Virus record (IMG/VR): IMGVR_UViG_3300017743_000137
Location: 1-23,084 of that record
Reading direction: 5' to 3' (one strand)
Origin: a virus
Length of the DNA stretch: 23,084 nt
Part shown: positions 2,576-8,413 of the stretch, in pieces
How the letters are laid out: every line of letters starts with the position of its first letter
Numbering within the stretch: position 1 is the stretch's first letter
Position numbers and translations under genes: made by a program
Notes under the pieces: model-generated
The model's database searches: none
What the model saw: only the letters and a program-made list of their open reading frames with translations
What the model was told of the DNA's origin: nothing

Positions 2576-3853
2576 ATGGTTAGAAGACCTGATACTTTTG
2601 GCGATACTATACGTCCGGGCGTCGGCAGATCTGTTAATGCTAAGCCGAGTGGGACTAATCTAGTAACTACTTCTAGCGGAGGATTTGTAAAAACCGGATC
2701 TGGAAGTTATGTCACTTCAAATCCTAATAAAAAATCTGGAAATAAAAGTGCTGCACAAGGTTACAGTAATAAGAGAAAAAATAAGTCTAAAAAATCTGGT
2801 AGACGTAAAGTACCTCAAATTATTGACGCCAGAAATTGTACCAATAGATCATCCTCTATAGGAATAAAGGGTGATAATATTATTACGTTAAAAGAGATGT
2901 TCTCTGTGGATTATGATAGTAAGGAAAATACCACAGAAGCATACTTACAAAGACTTAGAGAAAGAGACTCTAATAGTGGTTTTTCAACTAATCGAGTAAG
3001 TTCACCAGCGTCTTTTGAGAGAGGTGGTACTAGAAGTGACTCTTCGGGTGTACAGAGATTAGATAGTCCAATTCTTAGAGGAACTGGCTTTGGATCCTCT
3101 GGCGCAGGAGTAGGGGGAGCAGGAGGTAGCGGTGGAGGTGGTGGTTCTGTATCTTCTTCGTCTGGAACAATCGGTCTACCCACACCTGATAACCTTCAGG
3201 AAAATATGAATATTGGTTACGAGAGTAAGCATAAAGGCGCTGGTGGTGCAATTCAAGATGCCATAATGAATGCTACTGCAACAACTCTAAGAGCTTTAGG
3301 TGAAAAACAAGCTCCCGATATAGAGGGCGGTATGTCACAGATGAAGGCATTGTTTAACCAAGCTAAAGGCTTTTATGAACAGCCGGGAAATTTAAATAAC
3401 TTGATAGGCGCTGTTGGTAATATGGCGGGTGTGCAAGGATTTAATACTGCGTTCAACAATAGCATGGTTCAGCAGTTTTCTGGTGTCATGCCGAGAACAT
3501 TTAATTTTAGATGGAAGCTATATGCAGATTCAGAATCAGGGACACAATCTATATTTCAAGTTATACAACTTCTAAAAGAACACAGTCATCCAGAGCTTAT
3601 TGATCCATTTTTAAATATTATTAGATACCCATCAATATTGACACGTTTTGATATTAGATCGCCAAACGGTCTCATTATTTTTCCAATATTTGAGAGTGTT
3701 ATAACTGATATAACTGTAGACTATTCTGCTTCTGGTTCACCATTCTTTTTTAAGTCTGGTGCTCCTACTTCTGTGGCGTTGTCATTAACAATTATGGAAA
3801 TAACCAGTAGAGTCAGAGGTGATTATCAGGCTAGTAGAAGTGGATTTGCTTAA
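2576..3853 (+). CDS. 48: gp48 baseplate tail tube cap
   Basis: The product has 425 residues against 364 in T4 gp48. gp48 sits on the gp27 hub and, with gp54, nucleates the tail tube. The C-terminal half carries the family features: a helical stretch at about 220-300, PRTFNFRWKLYA (306-317), a helix ending in a YPSIL segment, and a tube-like beta region with IFPIFESVITDITVDY and the closing LTIMEITSR. Residues 1-215 are low complexity and probably disordered, with a basic patch (64-78) and a Gly/Ser-rich run (171-197) containing five consecutive Gly. T4 gp48 also has a flexible Ser-rich N-terminal half, so this is an extended form rather than a fusion. TAGGAA precedes the ATG, and the stop overlaps the gp53 start (TAATG). 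Confidence 0.82.
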   Translation: MVRRPDTFGDTIRPGVGRSVNAKPSGTNLVTTSSGGFVKTGSGSYVTSNPNKKSGNKSAAQGYSNKRKNKSKKSGRRKVPQIIDARNCTNRSSSIGIKGDNIITLKEMFSVDYDSKENTTEAYLQRLRERDSNSGFSTNRVSSPASFERGGTRSDSSGVQRLDSPILRGTGFGSSGAGVGGAGGSGGGGGSVSSSSGTIGLPTPDNLQENMNIGYESKHKGAGGAIQDAIMNATATTLRALGEKQAPDIEGGMSQMKALFNQAKGFYEQPGNLNNLIGAVGNMAGVQGFNTAFNNSMVQQFSGVMPRTFNFRWKLYADSESGTQSIFQVIQLLKEHSHPELIDPFLNIIRYPSILTRFDIRSPNGLIIFPIFESVITDITVDYSASGSPFFFKSGAPTSVALSLTIMEITSRVRGDYQASRSGFA

Positions 3854-4401
3854 TGTCAAAAGGTCTATTTAAGAATTTACCAATAATAGAATACAATGGT
3901 AAGCTTGCAAGAAATCTTATGGTATCTTCAAAAGTGGTTGATGACGCTTTTAATAATCCAAACGCTTTTTTAAAATATACTGTTGAGGATGATGAATCGC
4001 CTGAAGAAGTTGCATTTAACTTCTATGGAAGTGTATTTTTCTCTTGGCTTGTTTTGATGTCTAATAAAATTTTAGATGTATATAATGAGTGGCCTAAGTC
4101 TTATAAGCAGTTGACAAACTTTTACATTCAGAAATATGGGTCTGTACCTGCAGCTAAAGAAACGATATTACATTATAGTAATCCAAAATACGGTTTTACA
4201 ATTAATCAAGATACCTTTAGTAGATATTCTAATTCTGATTTTGTTGATGCAACGATTTCTATTGATCGAACTGGATGGGATCCTGTTACGGCATTTGAAT
4301 ATCACGAAGAAAGAAATGACAATTTGAGAAACATCGACTTGATTGATCCATCTTTCATAGATCAAGTGCAAGAAGAGGTGGAGAGATTATTTAATGGTTA
4401 A
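3853..4401 (+). CDS. 53: gp53 baseplate wedge subunit
   Basis: The product has 182 residues against 196 in T4 gp53. gp53 (LysM-like core) clamps adjacent wedges together around the hub during baseplate assembly. The family signature is clear: SPEEVAFNFYGSVFFSWLVL followed by MSNKI and NEWPKS, matching T4's PEELANAIYG...YWVLLMCN...GW. A partly charged helical C-terminus ends in QVQEEVERLF. The start overlaps the gp48 stop (TAATG), and the end overlaps the gp27 start by eight bases (ATGGTTAA), so expression is probably coupled in both directions. Order 48-53-27 differs from T4, where gene 53 lies next to gene 5 and gene 48 lies with 27-29 and 54. Confidence 0.85.
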   Translation: MSKGLFKNLPIIEYNGKLARNLMVSSKVVDDAFNNPNAFLKYTVEDDESPEEVAFNFYGSVFFSWLVLMSNKILDVYNEWPKSYKQLTNFYIQKYGSVPAAKETILHYSNPKYGFTINQDTFSRYSNSDFVDATISIDRTGWDPVTAFEYHEERNDNLRNIDLIDPSFIDQVQEEVERLFNG

Positions 4402-5650
4402 CTTTTTAGAGCCAGCCAAAGGCCAAAAAGCATTTAAGGTGGAGATTGTTAATCTTTTTGGCGGTGGAGGTGGCTTGGATATAACACAGTACGTCTCTTC
4501 TCTAAAAGCCTATTCTTCTCTAGATCATCCCTTCATGTCACTAAGTTGTGTTATATCTGATGAAGATGCAATACTTCGAAATGGGCGTATCGATGGAGAC
4601 CGGGCTTTAGCTGTAAGTATAACCGATGGTGCTGGTGAAACAATTGATGGTTCGTTTCATATTAATAGCACAAAGACGGCTATGGTTAATGGCCGAAAGG
4701 CTCTGGGGGTAGAGCTTATTTGTATGAGCCAAGAGCACATATACAATAGCTCACAGAAAGTTCAAGAATGGAAATTTAAAAACAACCCGGAAACCTGTAC
4801 AAACATTATAAAATATGTATTTGACAAATACATCAAAGGTGATTTGCAGATAAATGCATCTTCATCACCAGCCGTAAACATTGATATTCCACGTCAAACA
4901 CCCATGCAAGCAATCTCTTTTTTGCTTGAGAGGGCAGGTGGGACAGGAAATAATATGTTTGTATTATACGAAAGGTTTAAATCAGGAAAACCTAAATTTT
5001 TTCTTGATGAGGTAAGTGAATTGGCAAAGGCAGGTCCAAAATATAGATATGTGATGACAGAATATAATATGACTGGTGCTGCTCATATAATTGATACACA
5101 GTACGTCAGTGGATCTAAAATTGCTAAAATATTAGTGTTTGGCCAAGAGTCAGGGTTTGATGCTCACTCTATGCTGCAGCAAGGCTATGCATCTAAAGAA
5201 TATGTTGACATAGGGTTTGTTAATAAAATTTGCACGTTTACGAAAGACAAGTCACAACCTGTTTCTATGGAATCACGGCAAATGCCATTACTTTCAGAAA
5301 TTGCAAAACTAATGGCATCTCCAAGAGAGACACGAACTATATATGAACCGAGAAATGATGATGAGACTTATTTTGAAAAACCCAAATTAGAAGACGCATA
5401 TTTAAAACCTAAGACATCTGCAGCAGGATTTTTAAATAAAAGGGTTTCTATTAGCACGTATGGATGTGTGGATATTGGTCCGGGCGATGTTGTTGAAATG
5501 GTGTATCCAATAAACACCAAAGATCCTGACAGACCTTTGGATCCTGAACTTACTGGAAAATACTTAGTTCTCGCAATACGTCATAGTGTGACAACTAACG
5601 GAGAGGTATACTCTCAGCTTGAGTTGGGTCTTGATGGTCAGAGAGGTTAA
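4394..5650 (+). CDS. 27: gp27 baseplate central hub protein
   Basis: The product has 418 residues against 391 in T4 gp27. gp27 forms a trimeric ring with two tube-like domains per chain that adapts the sixfold tail to the threefold spike. The N-terminus (LDITQYVSSLKAYSSLDHPF) and the segment LRNGRIDGDRALAVSITDG fit the first beta domain of the gp27 / late-control-D hub family. The region PRQTPMQAISFLLERAGG is the usual hub helix, and the C-terminal part VSISTYGCVDIGPGDVVEMV with GKYLVLAIRHSV is the second beta domain, which ends such proteins. GGAGAG lies before the ATG. It sits immediately upstream of the gp5 OB-fold gene, its expected binding partner. Confidence 0.82.
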   Translation: MVNFLEPAKGQKAFKVEIVNLFGGGGGLDITQYVSSLKAYSSLDHPFMSLSCVISDEDAILRNGRIDGDRALAVSITDGAGETIDGSFHINSTKTAMVNGRKALGVELICMSQEHIYNSSQKVQEWKFKNNPETCTNIIKYVFDKYIKGDLQINASSSPAVNIDIPRQTPMQAISFLLERAGGTGNNMFVLYERFKSGKPKFFLDEVSELAKAGPKYRYVMTEYNMTGAAHIIDTQYVSGSKIAKILVFGQESGFDAHSMLQQGYASKEYVDIGFVNKICTFTKDKSQPVSMESRQMPLLSEIAKLMASPRETRTIYEPRNDDETYFEKPKLEDAYLKPKTSAAGFLNKRVSISTYGCVDIGPGDVVEMVYPINTKDPDRPLDPELTGKYLVLAIRHSVTTNGEVYSQLELGLDGQRG

Positions 5651-5679: not shown

Positions 5680-6147
5680 ATGAGTAATAATACTGATCTT
5701 GCAGGTTATCAGTCAGATTTTTATGGCAATAATTTTACTTGGTTTTTTGCATACGTTGATGAAGTGTATACGGCAGAAGAATCTAGAGATGCTGATACAC
5801 TATTGCGTGTCGCAATTCGTATTTTAGGATTACACGACGAATTAGCACCTTTAGCAGACTTGCCTTTAGCTACCGTACTCATGCCAAATACAGGGGCTGA
5901 TGTTCATGATATCGGAGAAACGATGGGTCTTGAAGTAGGTTCATTTGTAGTAGGATTTTGGATGGATCGTCACAGACAACATCCCTGCATTTTAGGTTCT
6001 CTTCCGGGAATTACACCAAGTCCTGTTGATTCAGTTTCTGATATTCAAAGTATAATTAAGTTTAATCGTTCTGGTCCGGGTCAGGGCGAATCGACTTCTG
6101 TTGAAACAACAGAAAATCCTCTCACTACTGAAGGACAAGTAGTATGA
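5680..6147 (+). CDS. 5: gp5 N-terminal OB-fold spike/hub protein (no lysozyme domain)
   Basis: The product has 155 residues and corresponds to the first domain of T4 gp5, which binds the gp27 ring. Features: NFTWFFAYVDEV (about 18-29), then VAIRILGLHDELAPLADLPLATVLMP, GLEVGSFVVGFWMD, and HPCILGSLPG, which parallels the T4 pattern GRVRVRVHGLH...LPWMSV...GTRVYGHFLD...GIVLGTYGG. Residues 116-155 are a polar linker. T4 gp5 is 575 aa with lysozyme and beta-helix domains in the same chain; here the chain stops after the OB fold and the rest is replaced by two separate genes. Its TGA overlaps the next ATG (ATGA). GAGGGAAG upstream fixes the start. Confidence 0.78.
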   Translation: MSNNTDLAGYQSDFYGNNFTWFFAYVDEVYTAEESRDADTLLRVAIRILGLHDELAPLADLPLATVLMPNTGADVHDIGETMGLEVGSFVVGFWMDRHRQHPCILGSLPGITPSPVDSVSDIQSIIKFNRSGPGQGESTSVETTENPLTTEGQVV

Positions 6148-6689
6148 TTGCACCTTCCTTTAACTTTGATCTTGGAATAAAAAATTACCAAAAAAACAGA
6201 CTTATTGTTGATAGAGTACATATTAAGAATGAAATTATGTACAATATAGAAAAAACTAAAAAAACTGTTTTTTCCATTAGTGCATTTTCTTACGTAAACA
6301 AAGACAACAGAAGTTTTTTAGAATCATTAAGGGATCTTGATGCATCTAATTTATTAAACACCTTTCACTTTTATATTAATACTTCTGGTAATGTTTTTAC
6401 TAATTTAGAAATGAGTTCTGAATCATTTTTTTATCCTAATAGTACGAATGAATTTAACATTGTTATTTGCTTTTCTGGAAAGAGGTCAAATTTAGGTAAT
6501 TTTAAACAGCCTTTAACACTGTACAATAACAATCAAATAAAAACTTTTTCTGAATTTATAAAGGTATTTTACAATAATGCCTTTGATGTTAAGTTTAATA
6601 ATTTGGACGTAGATAATAATTTTGATAAGATAACAAATCTTGGATTTGATTTAGAAAATTATGCGAAAGAGGAATTAGCAAGTGTCTGA
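6144..6689 (+). CDS. degenerate amidase-fold (T7-lysozyme-like) protein of the split spike
   Basis: This 181-residue protein is not one I recognise by name. By eye it follows the N-acetylmuramoyl-L-alanine amidase (Amidase_2/PGRP) fold of T7 lysozyme: TVFSISAF (41-48) at the first-strand position of IFVHCSA; NTFHFYINTSGNVFTNLE (72-89) at VGYHFIIKRDGTVEAGR; NEFNIVICFSGK (102-113) at NSIGVCLVGG; a helix at 122-144 at FTPAQMQSLRSLL; and FDVKFNNLD (147-155) at KVVGHRDLD. In this alignment zinc ligands His17 and His122 become Ile45 and Phe151, no Cys matches Cys130, and catalytic Tyr46 becomes Phe74. An active amidase is therefore unlikely. Its position between OB and beta-helix genes matches the lysozyme position in T4 gp5, so a structural or wall-binding spike part is inferred. 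GAAGGA precedes the ATG. Confidence 0.5.
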   Translation: MIAPSFNFDLGIKNYQKNRLIVDRVHIKNEIMYNIEKTKKTVFSISAFSYVNKDNRSFLESLRDLDASNLLNTFHFYINTSGNVFTNLEMSSESFFYPNSTNEFNIVICFSGKRSNLGNFKQPLTLYNNNQIKTFSEFIKVFYNNAFDVKFNNLDVDNNFDKITNLGFDLENYAKEELASV

Positions 6690-7344
6690 TAAATTAGGAC
6701 CATTACCAGCGCCAAAAGGACCGGGAAAAGACGGGCCAAAAGAAGTTAATCATGACGATGATCAAATTGCTTTGGAAGCTATTCCACCAAGAATTTCACC
6801 CATTCCTAAGATTACCTATCCGTACAATAAAGTAACAAAGTATCTCAACGGTAGTAAGTTAGAGTTTAATACTACACCCGGCCATGAGTATATCAATATC
6901 CAACATGGTAACGATCTTACTAGAATAACGTTGTTTGCTGATGGAAATCTTGAGATTATTCAGGAAGATGGATCAAGAAGAGATGAAGTATCTGGAACGT
7001 TTAGGCAAGAGGTAGGAGGGTTTTATTTTACTTCATCTAGAGATAGATTCACAACTCAAGATACGTATACTAGTCTCACTAAACAAATGTCTACCTTTTC
7101 TGCAGATAAAAAAATTATTTTAAAATCAAGAGAAATAGAAATAAGAGGAAATGTTTCTCTTGATAAAGATGTAATTATTCGTGGAAATCTTTTTGTTGAT
7201 GGTAGTGTAAAAATAAATGGTTCTTTAGATGCAGCATACAGACTTGAAGTGGAAGAAAAATTCCCAGAAGCACCAAGTGCTAATGAAGAACCTGAAGATT
7301 TTGAAATTGAATTTCGTAATAAAGATGAATCTATTATTACTTAA
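6682..7344 (+). CDS. 5: gp5 C-terminal beta-helix spike protein
   Basis: This 220-residue protein corresponds to the part of T4 gp5/VgrG after the lysozyme. The segment YPYNKVTKYLNGSKLEFNTT followed by PGHEYINIQHGNDL (about 46-79) matches the family pattern YP-N-V...GH-IE-D-TPG-ER-I-H. Residues 80-187 alternate short beta strands (ITLFADGNLEII, IILKSREIEIRG, VIIRGNLFVDGSVKINGS), as expected of an intertwined trimeric beta-helix. Residues 1-45 are a Pro/Gly-rich linker, and the last 30 residues are acidic. It starts with GTG at 6682, overlapping the previous stop by eight bases, with GAGG nine bases upstream. No PAAR-type tip gene is visible beside it. Confidence 0.72.
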   Translation: MSDKLGPLPAPKGPGKDGPKEVNHDDDQIALEAIPPRISPIPKITYPYNKVTKYLNGSKLEFNTTPGHEYINIQHGNDLTRITLFADGNLEIIQEDGSRRDEVSGTFRQEVGGFYFTSSRDRFTTQDTYTSLTKQMSTFSADKKIILKSREIEIRGNVSLDKDVIIRGNLFVDGSVKINGSLDAAYRLEVEEKFPEAPSANEEPEDFEIEFRNKDESIIT

Positions 7345-7358
7345 ATGAGGGAACAAAC

Positions 7359-8003
7359 ATGATTTTTAGTTTAAATAACACAAAGTTTGGAATTATAGAT
7401 TACTTTGAAGGCTATGAGCTAGATATTGTAAAGAGAAATAGATTTGCTCAAATCCCCAAAAGGTTTTTACTAGAAAAGTACCCAGAGAGCGATATAGATC
7501 TTTTTGATGATGAAAGAGTTCAATTTTCTACGCACTTCTTTGATGAGGACTTCATAAAAACGACGATACAAAGAACTAAAGATTCAATTACTCCTTTTAA
7601 AGATAGTAATAATAATTTTGAAGATGAACCCCTTCATTGCTTTAGCATTAAATCGATATACAACAATCTTCAAAGGCTTTGTTATGAAGTGATGGAGCCA
7701 GCATATGAAATTACAGGAAGAATTCCTTTTATTGAAAGTGGTTTATTGTTTAGAGACAATATAAAAGGAGTAGATATGGATTCGTTTTTTGCGGATCAAA
7801 TACAAGGAAACGCTGTTGTTTTTAACTTTAAAAACGATAAAAATAACACTCTTATCAATAAATGTGCTAATTATATAAAAGAGTTTTCATTATTTGACAG
7901 AATATATATCGATAATACTTTTAAGAAATACGAAAGAACAACCCTTATGGTTTCTGTAAACGATAAGAAAAGAGGTGTTGTTGGATTAGTTAGGAGAAAA
8001 TAA
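7359..8003 (+). CDS. degenerate M15-type peptidase-fold protein in the hub operon
   Basis: This 214-residue protein is unnamed. Residues 58-214 follow the Peptidase_M15_3 layout (zinc D,D-carboxypeptidase / L,D-endopeptidase): THFFDEDFIKTT (58-69) at the opening FTL-EL-S-TA motif; NNLQRLCYEVMEPAYEITG (102-120) at NL-RL-E-VLEPLR-G; IESGLLFRDN (125-134) at VTSGYRSP; FFADQIQGNAVVF (143-155) at SQHL-GEAADI; FDRIYID (179-185) at FDQLI-E; TTLMVSV (194-200) at WVHVSY. The three metal ligands of the family (H, D, H) fall on Gln147, Val154 and Met197, so it is probably not an active peptidase. Residues 1-57 have no visible match. A role as structural or peptidoglycan-contacting baseplate part is inferred. 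GAGGGAA precedes the start, and its TAA overlaps the gp25 start (TAATG). Confidence 0.5.
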   Translation: MIFSLNNTKFGIIDYFEGYELDIVKRNRFAQIPKRFLLEKYPESDIDLFDDERVQFSTHFFDEDFIKTTIQRTKDSITPFKDSNNNFEDEPLHCFSIKSIYNNLQRLCYEVMEPAYEITGRIPFIESGLLFRDNIKGVDMDSFFADQIQGNAVVFNFKNDKNNTLINKCANYIKEFSLFDRIYIDNTFKKYERTTLMVSVNDKKRGVVGLVRRK

Positions 8004-8413
8004 TGCAAAGTCCTGTTGTAAAAGATATATATTTCTCAGACTTAGATACGCAATTTACACAGAATCCAATAACTGACGACGTTGTATCGATCAAAAATTT
8101 TGAATCTATTAAAAGATCTGTTCGTAATATTATAAGCACGAACAAAGGTGAAAGGCCGTTCAATCCAGATTTTGGTTCTAACGTAAGAGCACTTTTATTT
8201 GAGCCAGATAGTGATCTTTTGAGAATTGCGCTTGAAGATGAAATCGAAACACAGCTTTCAAACTTTGAGCCTAGAATTGATGTTCTCAGCATAACTGTTT
8301 CAAACACTTCGGAGCAAATCGATAGTTATGAACTTAACGTTATTATTGAGTTCAGTCCCATAAATAGTCAACAAGTAGTTACACTAAACGTAGTATTAGA
8401 AAGAGCAAGATAA
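8003..8413 (+). CDS. 25: gp25 baseplate wedge subunit
   Basis: The product has 136 residues against 132 in T4 gp25. gp25 (gp25/IraD, 'lysozyme-like' wedge family, no lytic activity) sits next to gp6 in the inner wedge and helps trigger sheath polymerisation. The signature is present: IKRSVRNIISTNKGERPFNP (about 36-55), DFGSNVRALLFEP, and the EPR motif in LSNFEPRIDVLSITV near residues 86-100. AGGAGA lies before the start, which overlaps the preceding stop (TAATG); its own stop overlaps the gp6 start in the same way. This tight 25-6 pairing fits their direct contact in the baseplate. Confidence 0.92.
   Translation: MQSPVVKDIYFSDLDTQFTQNPITDDVVSIKNFESIKRSVRNIISTNKGERPFNPDFGSNVRALLFEPDSDLLRIALEDEIETQLSNFEPRIDVLSITVSNTSEQIDSYELNVIIEFSPINSQQVVTLNVVLERAR

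Follow-up and report, generated by a model that had tools for sequence, protein, structure and literature searches.

The gp5 lysozyme of T4 occupies the slot between the OB and beta-helix regions of the hub and is believed to assist the passage of the tail tube across the cell wall. Pseudomonas phage pf16 has the order OB-beta-helix-M15, while Caulobacter phage Cr30 has OB-Phage_lysozyme2-beta-helix-M15 and Methylophilales phage Melnitz has OB-VanY, followed by beta-helix-M15_3 and then gp25. In Pseudomonas phage Milchi and Vibrio phage 1.255.O a PAAR-M15 protein lies immediately upstream of gp25, in Sinorhizobium phage phiM12 a stand-alone M15 gene separates gp5 from the gp25 region, and Ochrobactrum phage OC carries OB-M15-lysozyme-spike within a single protein. 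The hub of cyanophage A-1(L) also contains several hydrolase-type domains, and activity has been reported for two of them, the endoglucanase and the peptidase (PMC10966104). M15 enzymes hold their zinc through H154, D161 and H197 (1LBU numbering), with R138 (PMC11266112). Sonic hedgehog is a protein with the M15 fold in which the pseudo-active site serves as a protein-binding surface (PMC11266112). Hub M15 modules, at the annotation level, and M15 pseudo-peptidases in animals are already known.

Scanning IMG/VR with the aligned intact hub M15s recovered at least 520 relatives, of which 80 were kept. The first two ligands were found by pattern in 77/80 and by eye in 2 more (HGTGQGGD, HGTGQGAD), and a gp25-like gene lies downstream in 49/80; as the scan favours query-like sequences, 77/80 and 49/80 are not unbiased counts. 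In the hub of Melnitz-1 (L084:6419-9462) a VanY match (E 1.1e-4) is accompanied by an M15_3-type domain with an intact triad, and the Melnitz paper states that the phage lacks lysin-like genes other than gp67 (PMC9004378).

The locus described here lies in a 23-kb virus fragment (23,084 nucleotides), here called the window. Its genes follow the order of a T4-like baseplate operon: gp48-like (2576-3853), gp53-like (3853-4401), a protein in the gp27 position, gp5 OB, a 181-aa gene, gp5 spike, the M15-like gene, gp25 and further baseplate genes. Those from the gp27 position to gp25 are on the plus strand. The product of 4394..5650, a hub or tail protein, matches PHROG 350 'tail protein' (E 1.7e-32), and its gp27 role is presumed from gene order and established knowledge of T4. 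The N-terminal OB domain of gp5 is a gene of its own (5680..6147; Pfam PF06714, E 2e-7; PHROG 430, E 8.1e-18), as is the C-terminal beta-helix-type spike region (6682..7344), which gives weak PHROG gp5/tail-lysozyme matches (E 0.002-0.004) and resembles in sequence the start of the gp5 beta-helix of relatives. Between these two lies the 181-aa gene (6144..6689). The M15-like gene (P0001, 214 aa, 7359..8003) sits between the beta-helix gene and that of the gp25 baseplate wedge (8003..8413, identified from the ORF list, Pfam and PHROG), and its stop codon overlaps the gp25 ATG by one base. Among the hub genes tested in the window, no active hydrolase was recognised by Pfam or PHROGs.

This arrangement matches the hubs of Melnitz, pf16 and Cr30, in which an M15_3 module directly follows the gp5 beta-helix and closely precedes gp25/gp6. 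Furthermore, Melnitz and Cr30 have a second hydrolase between OB and beta-helix, as in the window order OB / amidase-fold / beta-helix / M15-fold. In all three phages, however, the module is part of a gp5 fusion and its triad (H..G.A.D / W.H) is intact, whereas the window gene is separate and apparently dead. The peptidase M15 of phiM12, gp110, likewise has a gene of its own, flanked by gp5 and the gp25 region, but it has 520 aa with a long N-terminal part and an intact triad (HMKGVALD, IHVD). The M15_3 module of Milchi and Vibrio phage 1.255.O is also directly upstream of gp25, but it is fused to a spike-tip PAAR domain and its triad is intact.

Homologues of the M15-like protein were collected in IMG/VR via gp25 synteny and direct scans. 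The 17 loci obtained represent 11 distinct sequences, and the slot is identical wherever that stretch was covered. In all of them the gene is a separate ORF, without fusion to gp5 or PAAR. A tblastn search of P0001 against 50,697 phage records returned no match.

A reading of the DNA made from sequence alone (hereafter the sequence-only reading) had assigned the protein to an M15-like fold, and the blocks it quoted are all present in the ORF translation, namely NLQRLCYEVMEP, IESGLLFR, DQIQGNA and FDRI. P0001 has no match in Pfam, and none of the 11 family members reaches the PF08291 gathering cut-off; across the family the Pfam scan gave weak unrelated matches only. Against PHROG nothing better than E 0.38 was found and against PDB sequences nothing better than E 0.95, the sialidase matches in the latter search being chance. 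A match to 1xp4 (E 1.5), obtained with the profile of the 11-member family alignment (A2) against PDB sequences, was also dismissed as chance and falls outside the core.

While single-sequence matching to PF08291 failed, the family profile did match intact M15_3 proteins: hhalign of A2 with an alignment of 10 intact phage M15_3 proteins (A4, 8/10 matching PF08291) gave a probability of 96.3% and E 1.7e-9 over residues 53-206. When rerun, A2 scored 57.6 versus 22.7 for the best of 200 column shuffles, which is less than half, and the controls against A4 scored 12.6 for reversed A2 and 11.3 for a neighbouring family (A3). The window protein shares with Peptidase_M15_3 (PF08291) and 1LBU the fold and the block order LS.nF...NL..L...vLEP..., SG.R, G.A, FD(Q/R), SvN, and differs from them by the lack of a Pfam match and by a 57-residue N-terminal extension.

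An AlphaFold2 model was built without templates from A2, which holds only 11 related sequences. Its mean pLDDT is 67.5, the core 97-210 has block pLDDT values of about 71-92, and regions 1-51 and 69-91 are poor. Foldseek of the model against the PDB placed 1LBU first (E 0.03, probability 0.98), and VIA-align superposed it on this M15 zinc DD-peptidase with Z 12.3 and an rmsd of 3.6 over 125 residues. The VIA-align rows after 1LBU reach Z 6.4 at most and correspond to hedgehog domains and other M15 peptidases. In the Foldseek viral library, the named matches with E < 0.001 are nearly all M15 peptidases or gp5 OB proteins, and one of them, the OB protein of pf16, bears a C-terminal M15 domain. 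Judging from the profile alignment and the model, the 214-aa protein is of M15_3 ancestry and fold, with the M15_3-like domain at about residues 58-206 (7530..7976, plus strand). Sonic hedgehog's N-terminal domain, second structurally (Z 6.0-6.4), has likewise an M15-type fold without peptidase function (PMC11266112), but it keeps its zinc ligands and is an animal signalling protein, and no close relation is implied.

The same hhalign alignment opposes Q147, V154 and M197 to the zinc His, Asp and His, and R132 to R138. On the plus strand, Gln147 (7797..7799) stands at the position of 1LBU His154 and is Q or E in 11/11 homologues, Val154 (7818..7820) stands at Asp161 and is Val in 11/11, and Met197 (7947..7949) stands at His197 and is M, A or S. 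The Trp two residues ahead of the third ligand is replaced by T/S, and an intact triad is found in 0/11 distinct homologues, so the loss of the metal site at these three residues, as first read from the letters, agrees with the family as a whole. Retention of the His/Asp/His triad elsewhere in the protein was ruled out, there being a single conserved His column only: the 11 distinct homologues share no His pair, and the only widely kept His, H93 (10/11), is outside the core. From these replacements, the protein is apparently dead as an M15 enzyme and would not cleave peptidoglycan.

Eleven residues are invariant in the 11 homologues (D141, S142, F143, G150, N151, A152, V153, V154, D180, S199 and R205), and D146 and D185 are nearly so. 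The former active-site region is, by this conservation pattern, kept, though not as a metal site. A protein that is still an enzyme, using another metal site or chemistry through the acidic D141, D146, D180 and D185 together with H93, would account for the constancy of these residues; we regard this as very improbable, since H93 is outside the conserved core, no His pair is conserved, and none of the three M15 ligand positions retains its residue, two now being hydrophobic.

The conserved region could also belong to a wall-recognition module, as in the sequence-only reading, that lost catalysis and still binds peptidoglycan stem peptides, steering the spike or holding it on the wall. Peptidoglycan binding may persist despite the loss of the metal site: the M15 groove appears kept overall in the model, and conservation within the family is among its highest in the residues surrounding the former active site. 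On the other hand, at the substrate-site Arg (1LBU R138, window R132) 9 homologues have R/K, 1 has L and 1 has V; the Glu/Asp site reads D/N, Trp has given way to T/S, and the site now holds Val and Met. Because this Arg varies within the family, the alignment does not point to retained wall binding, and we consider a wall-recognition role unlikely.

Nei-Gojobori estimates of dN/dS are 0.09-0.25 for seven homologue pairs, from which it follows that the M15-like protein is maintained by selection; a decaying pseudogene is ruled out by the same values. The N-terminal extension, residues 1-57 (7359..7529, plus strand), is a candidate docking segment in which 7/57 positions are invariant among the 11 distinct homologues, including F10, F16, R26, N27 and F29. 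It had been taken as a possible anchor; as it shows, by inspection, no hydrophobic or TM-like stretch, it is not a membrane anchor. Two homologues (L014 and L020) have about 23 added residues in a variable stretch matching window residues 80-92, and these window residues form a poorly predicted loop preceding the M15 core.

The 181-aa protein encoded at 6144-6689 is predicted to adopt an amidase_2 / T7-lysozyme / PGRP fold. Its AlphaFold2 model (m58dd67e83aa2) gives a VIA Z of 8.2 to T7 lysozyme 1ARO, and the leading 42 VIA rows are amidases or PGRPs without exception. No conserved metal-ligand set of His/Cys was found in this protein when its conserved columns were checked. The gene is placed between the OB and beta-helix genes, that is in the first hydrolase slot, which the Cr30 lysozyme and the Melnitz VanY also fill. 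The two dead folds then correspond to the hub's two regular hydrolase slots, each now a gene of its own and each apparently holding a dead enzyme.

This two-slot layout bears on what the sequence-only reading had made of the pair. Its view that two dead folds side by side are no coincidence holds, given that the gp5 hubs of relatives show two regular hydrolase slots, and the association with the hub stands as well, except that both genes lie inside the operon and not merely near it. Recurring reuse of wall-recognition folds, which it suggested as the cause, is not supported in that form: relatives normally reuse an intact, presumably active hydrolase, and the Arg of the substrate site is variable. 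The two-slot layout of relatives explains the paired dead folds better than repeated recruitment of wall-recognition folds.

Given the intact M15_3 modules in the same slot of related phages, the M15-like protein has most likely turned structural, and we think it probable that this pseudo-peptidase persists as a hub/spike component with a structural or docking function. On this reading, the gp5 hub/spike of the lineage was split into one gene each for OB, amidase-fold, beta-helix and M15-fold, and both hydrolase modules have lost their metal ligands yet stayed under purifying selection. The M15-like protein would then be a virion component docked on the hub/spike, possibly through the conserved N-terminal extension; docking is a guess, because residues 1-51 and 69-91 are of low confidence in the model. 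D141-S142-F143 and G150-N-A-V-V154 may now provide a surface for packing or protein-protein contact in place of cutting, a use for which Sonic hedgehog offers a precedent, and wall cutting, if any, would be done by another protein.

A candidate for such a protein occurs in a relative of the window phage. The 119-kb contig of L020 has no match to Phage_lysozyme, Amidase_2 or M15_4, and at about 81.5 kb of it (G001:C1), far from the hub genes, it encodes a 363-aa protein (L181) that has a hydrophobic stretch and an M15 site of intact appearance (HATGEAVD ... FHFD) and that, on these motifs, could supply wall cutting. Its presence also lends something to the idea that the 214-aa protein is a non-virion assembly factor or inhibitor, either a spike chaperone or a dead partner controlling an active M15 of the same phage. 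Indeed, the gene is small and separate, and pseudo-peptidases often partner active cousins (PMC11266112). But the intact homologues found at this position form fusions with structural parts of the spike, and L181 is a distant M15 type with its own membrane-like segment, making an assembly factor or inhibitor quite unlikely in our estimate; we retain the structural or docking role.

A wider claim is that this T4-like lineage made its whole cell-puncturing device non-catalytic, both hub hydrolases being pseudo-enzymes kept as separate structural subunits. We hold this to be possible but somewhat doubtful. If true, passage of the tube through the wall would be mechanical or dependent on a hydrolase encoded elsewhere, and a conserved lineage in which both hub hydrolases are dead would let the need for hub catalysis, or the structural role, be tested. 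The comparison also gives a clear origin to an uncharacterised marine phage gene family and brings out, as a general rule, that the hub has two slots for hydrolases. A phage lineage that conserves a dead M15 as a separate hub gene next to a dead hub amidase was not found described in the literature searched, of which our coverage is partial and which was examined for hub M15 modules and for dead hydrolases of T4-like baseplates.

The 80th of the relatives kept from the IMG/VR scan (L165:1493-4567) is a 1024-aa gp5-type fusion of OB, a lysozyme-like (muramidase-like) segment, spike and C-terminal M15. The M15 ligands of this protein read N/N/T, and there are three near-identical loci (also L178-L180). 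Going by these ligand positions, another lineage has lost the M15 metal site a second time and independently.

In Pelagibacter phage HTVC008M and cyanophages syn9 and S-CAM8, no M15 gene is annotated beside gp25, and 'possible lysozyme' names are present. The gene for the Synechococcus phage S-CAM8 'Lysozyme' (BFVD G8EY22, 212 aa) was not located in the genome stretch read. This protein resembles the M15-like model in structure, weakly but with high probability (E 4e-3, probability 1.00), and on that basis cyanophages may carry a protein related to the M15-like one.
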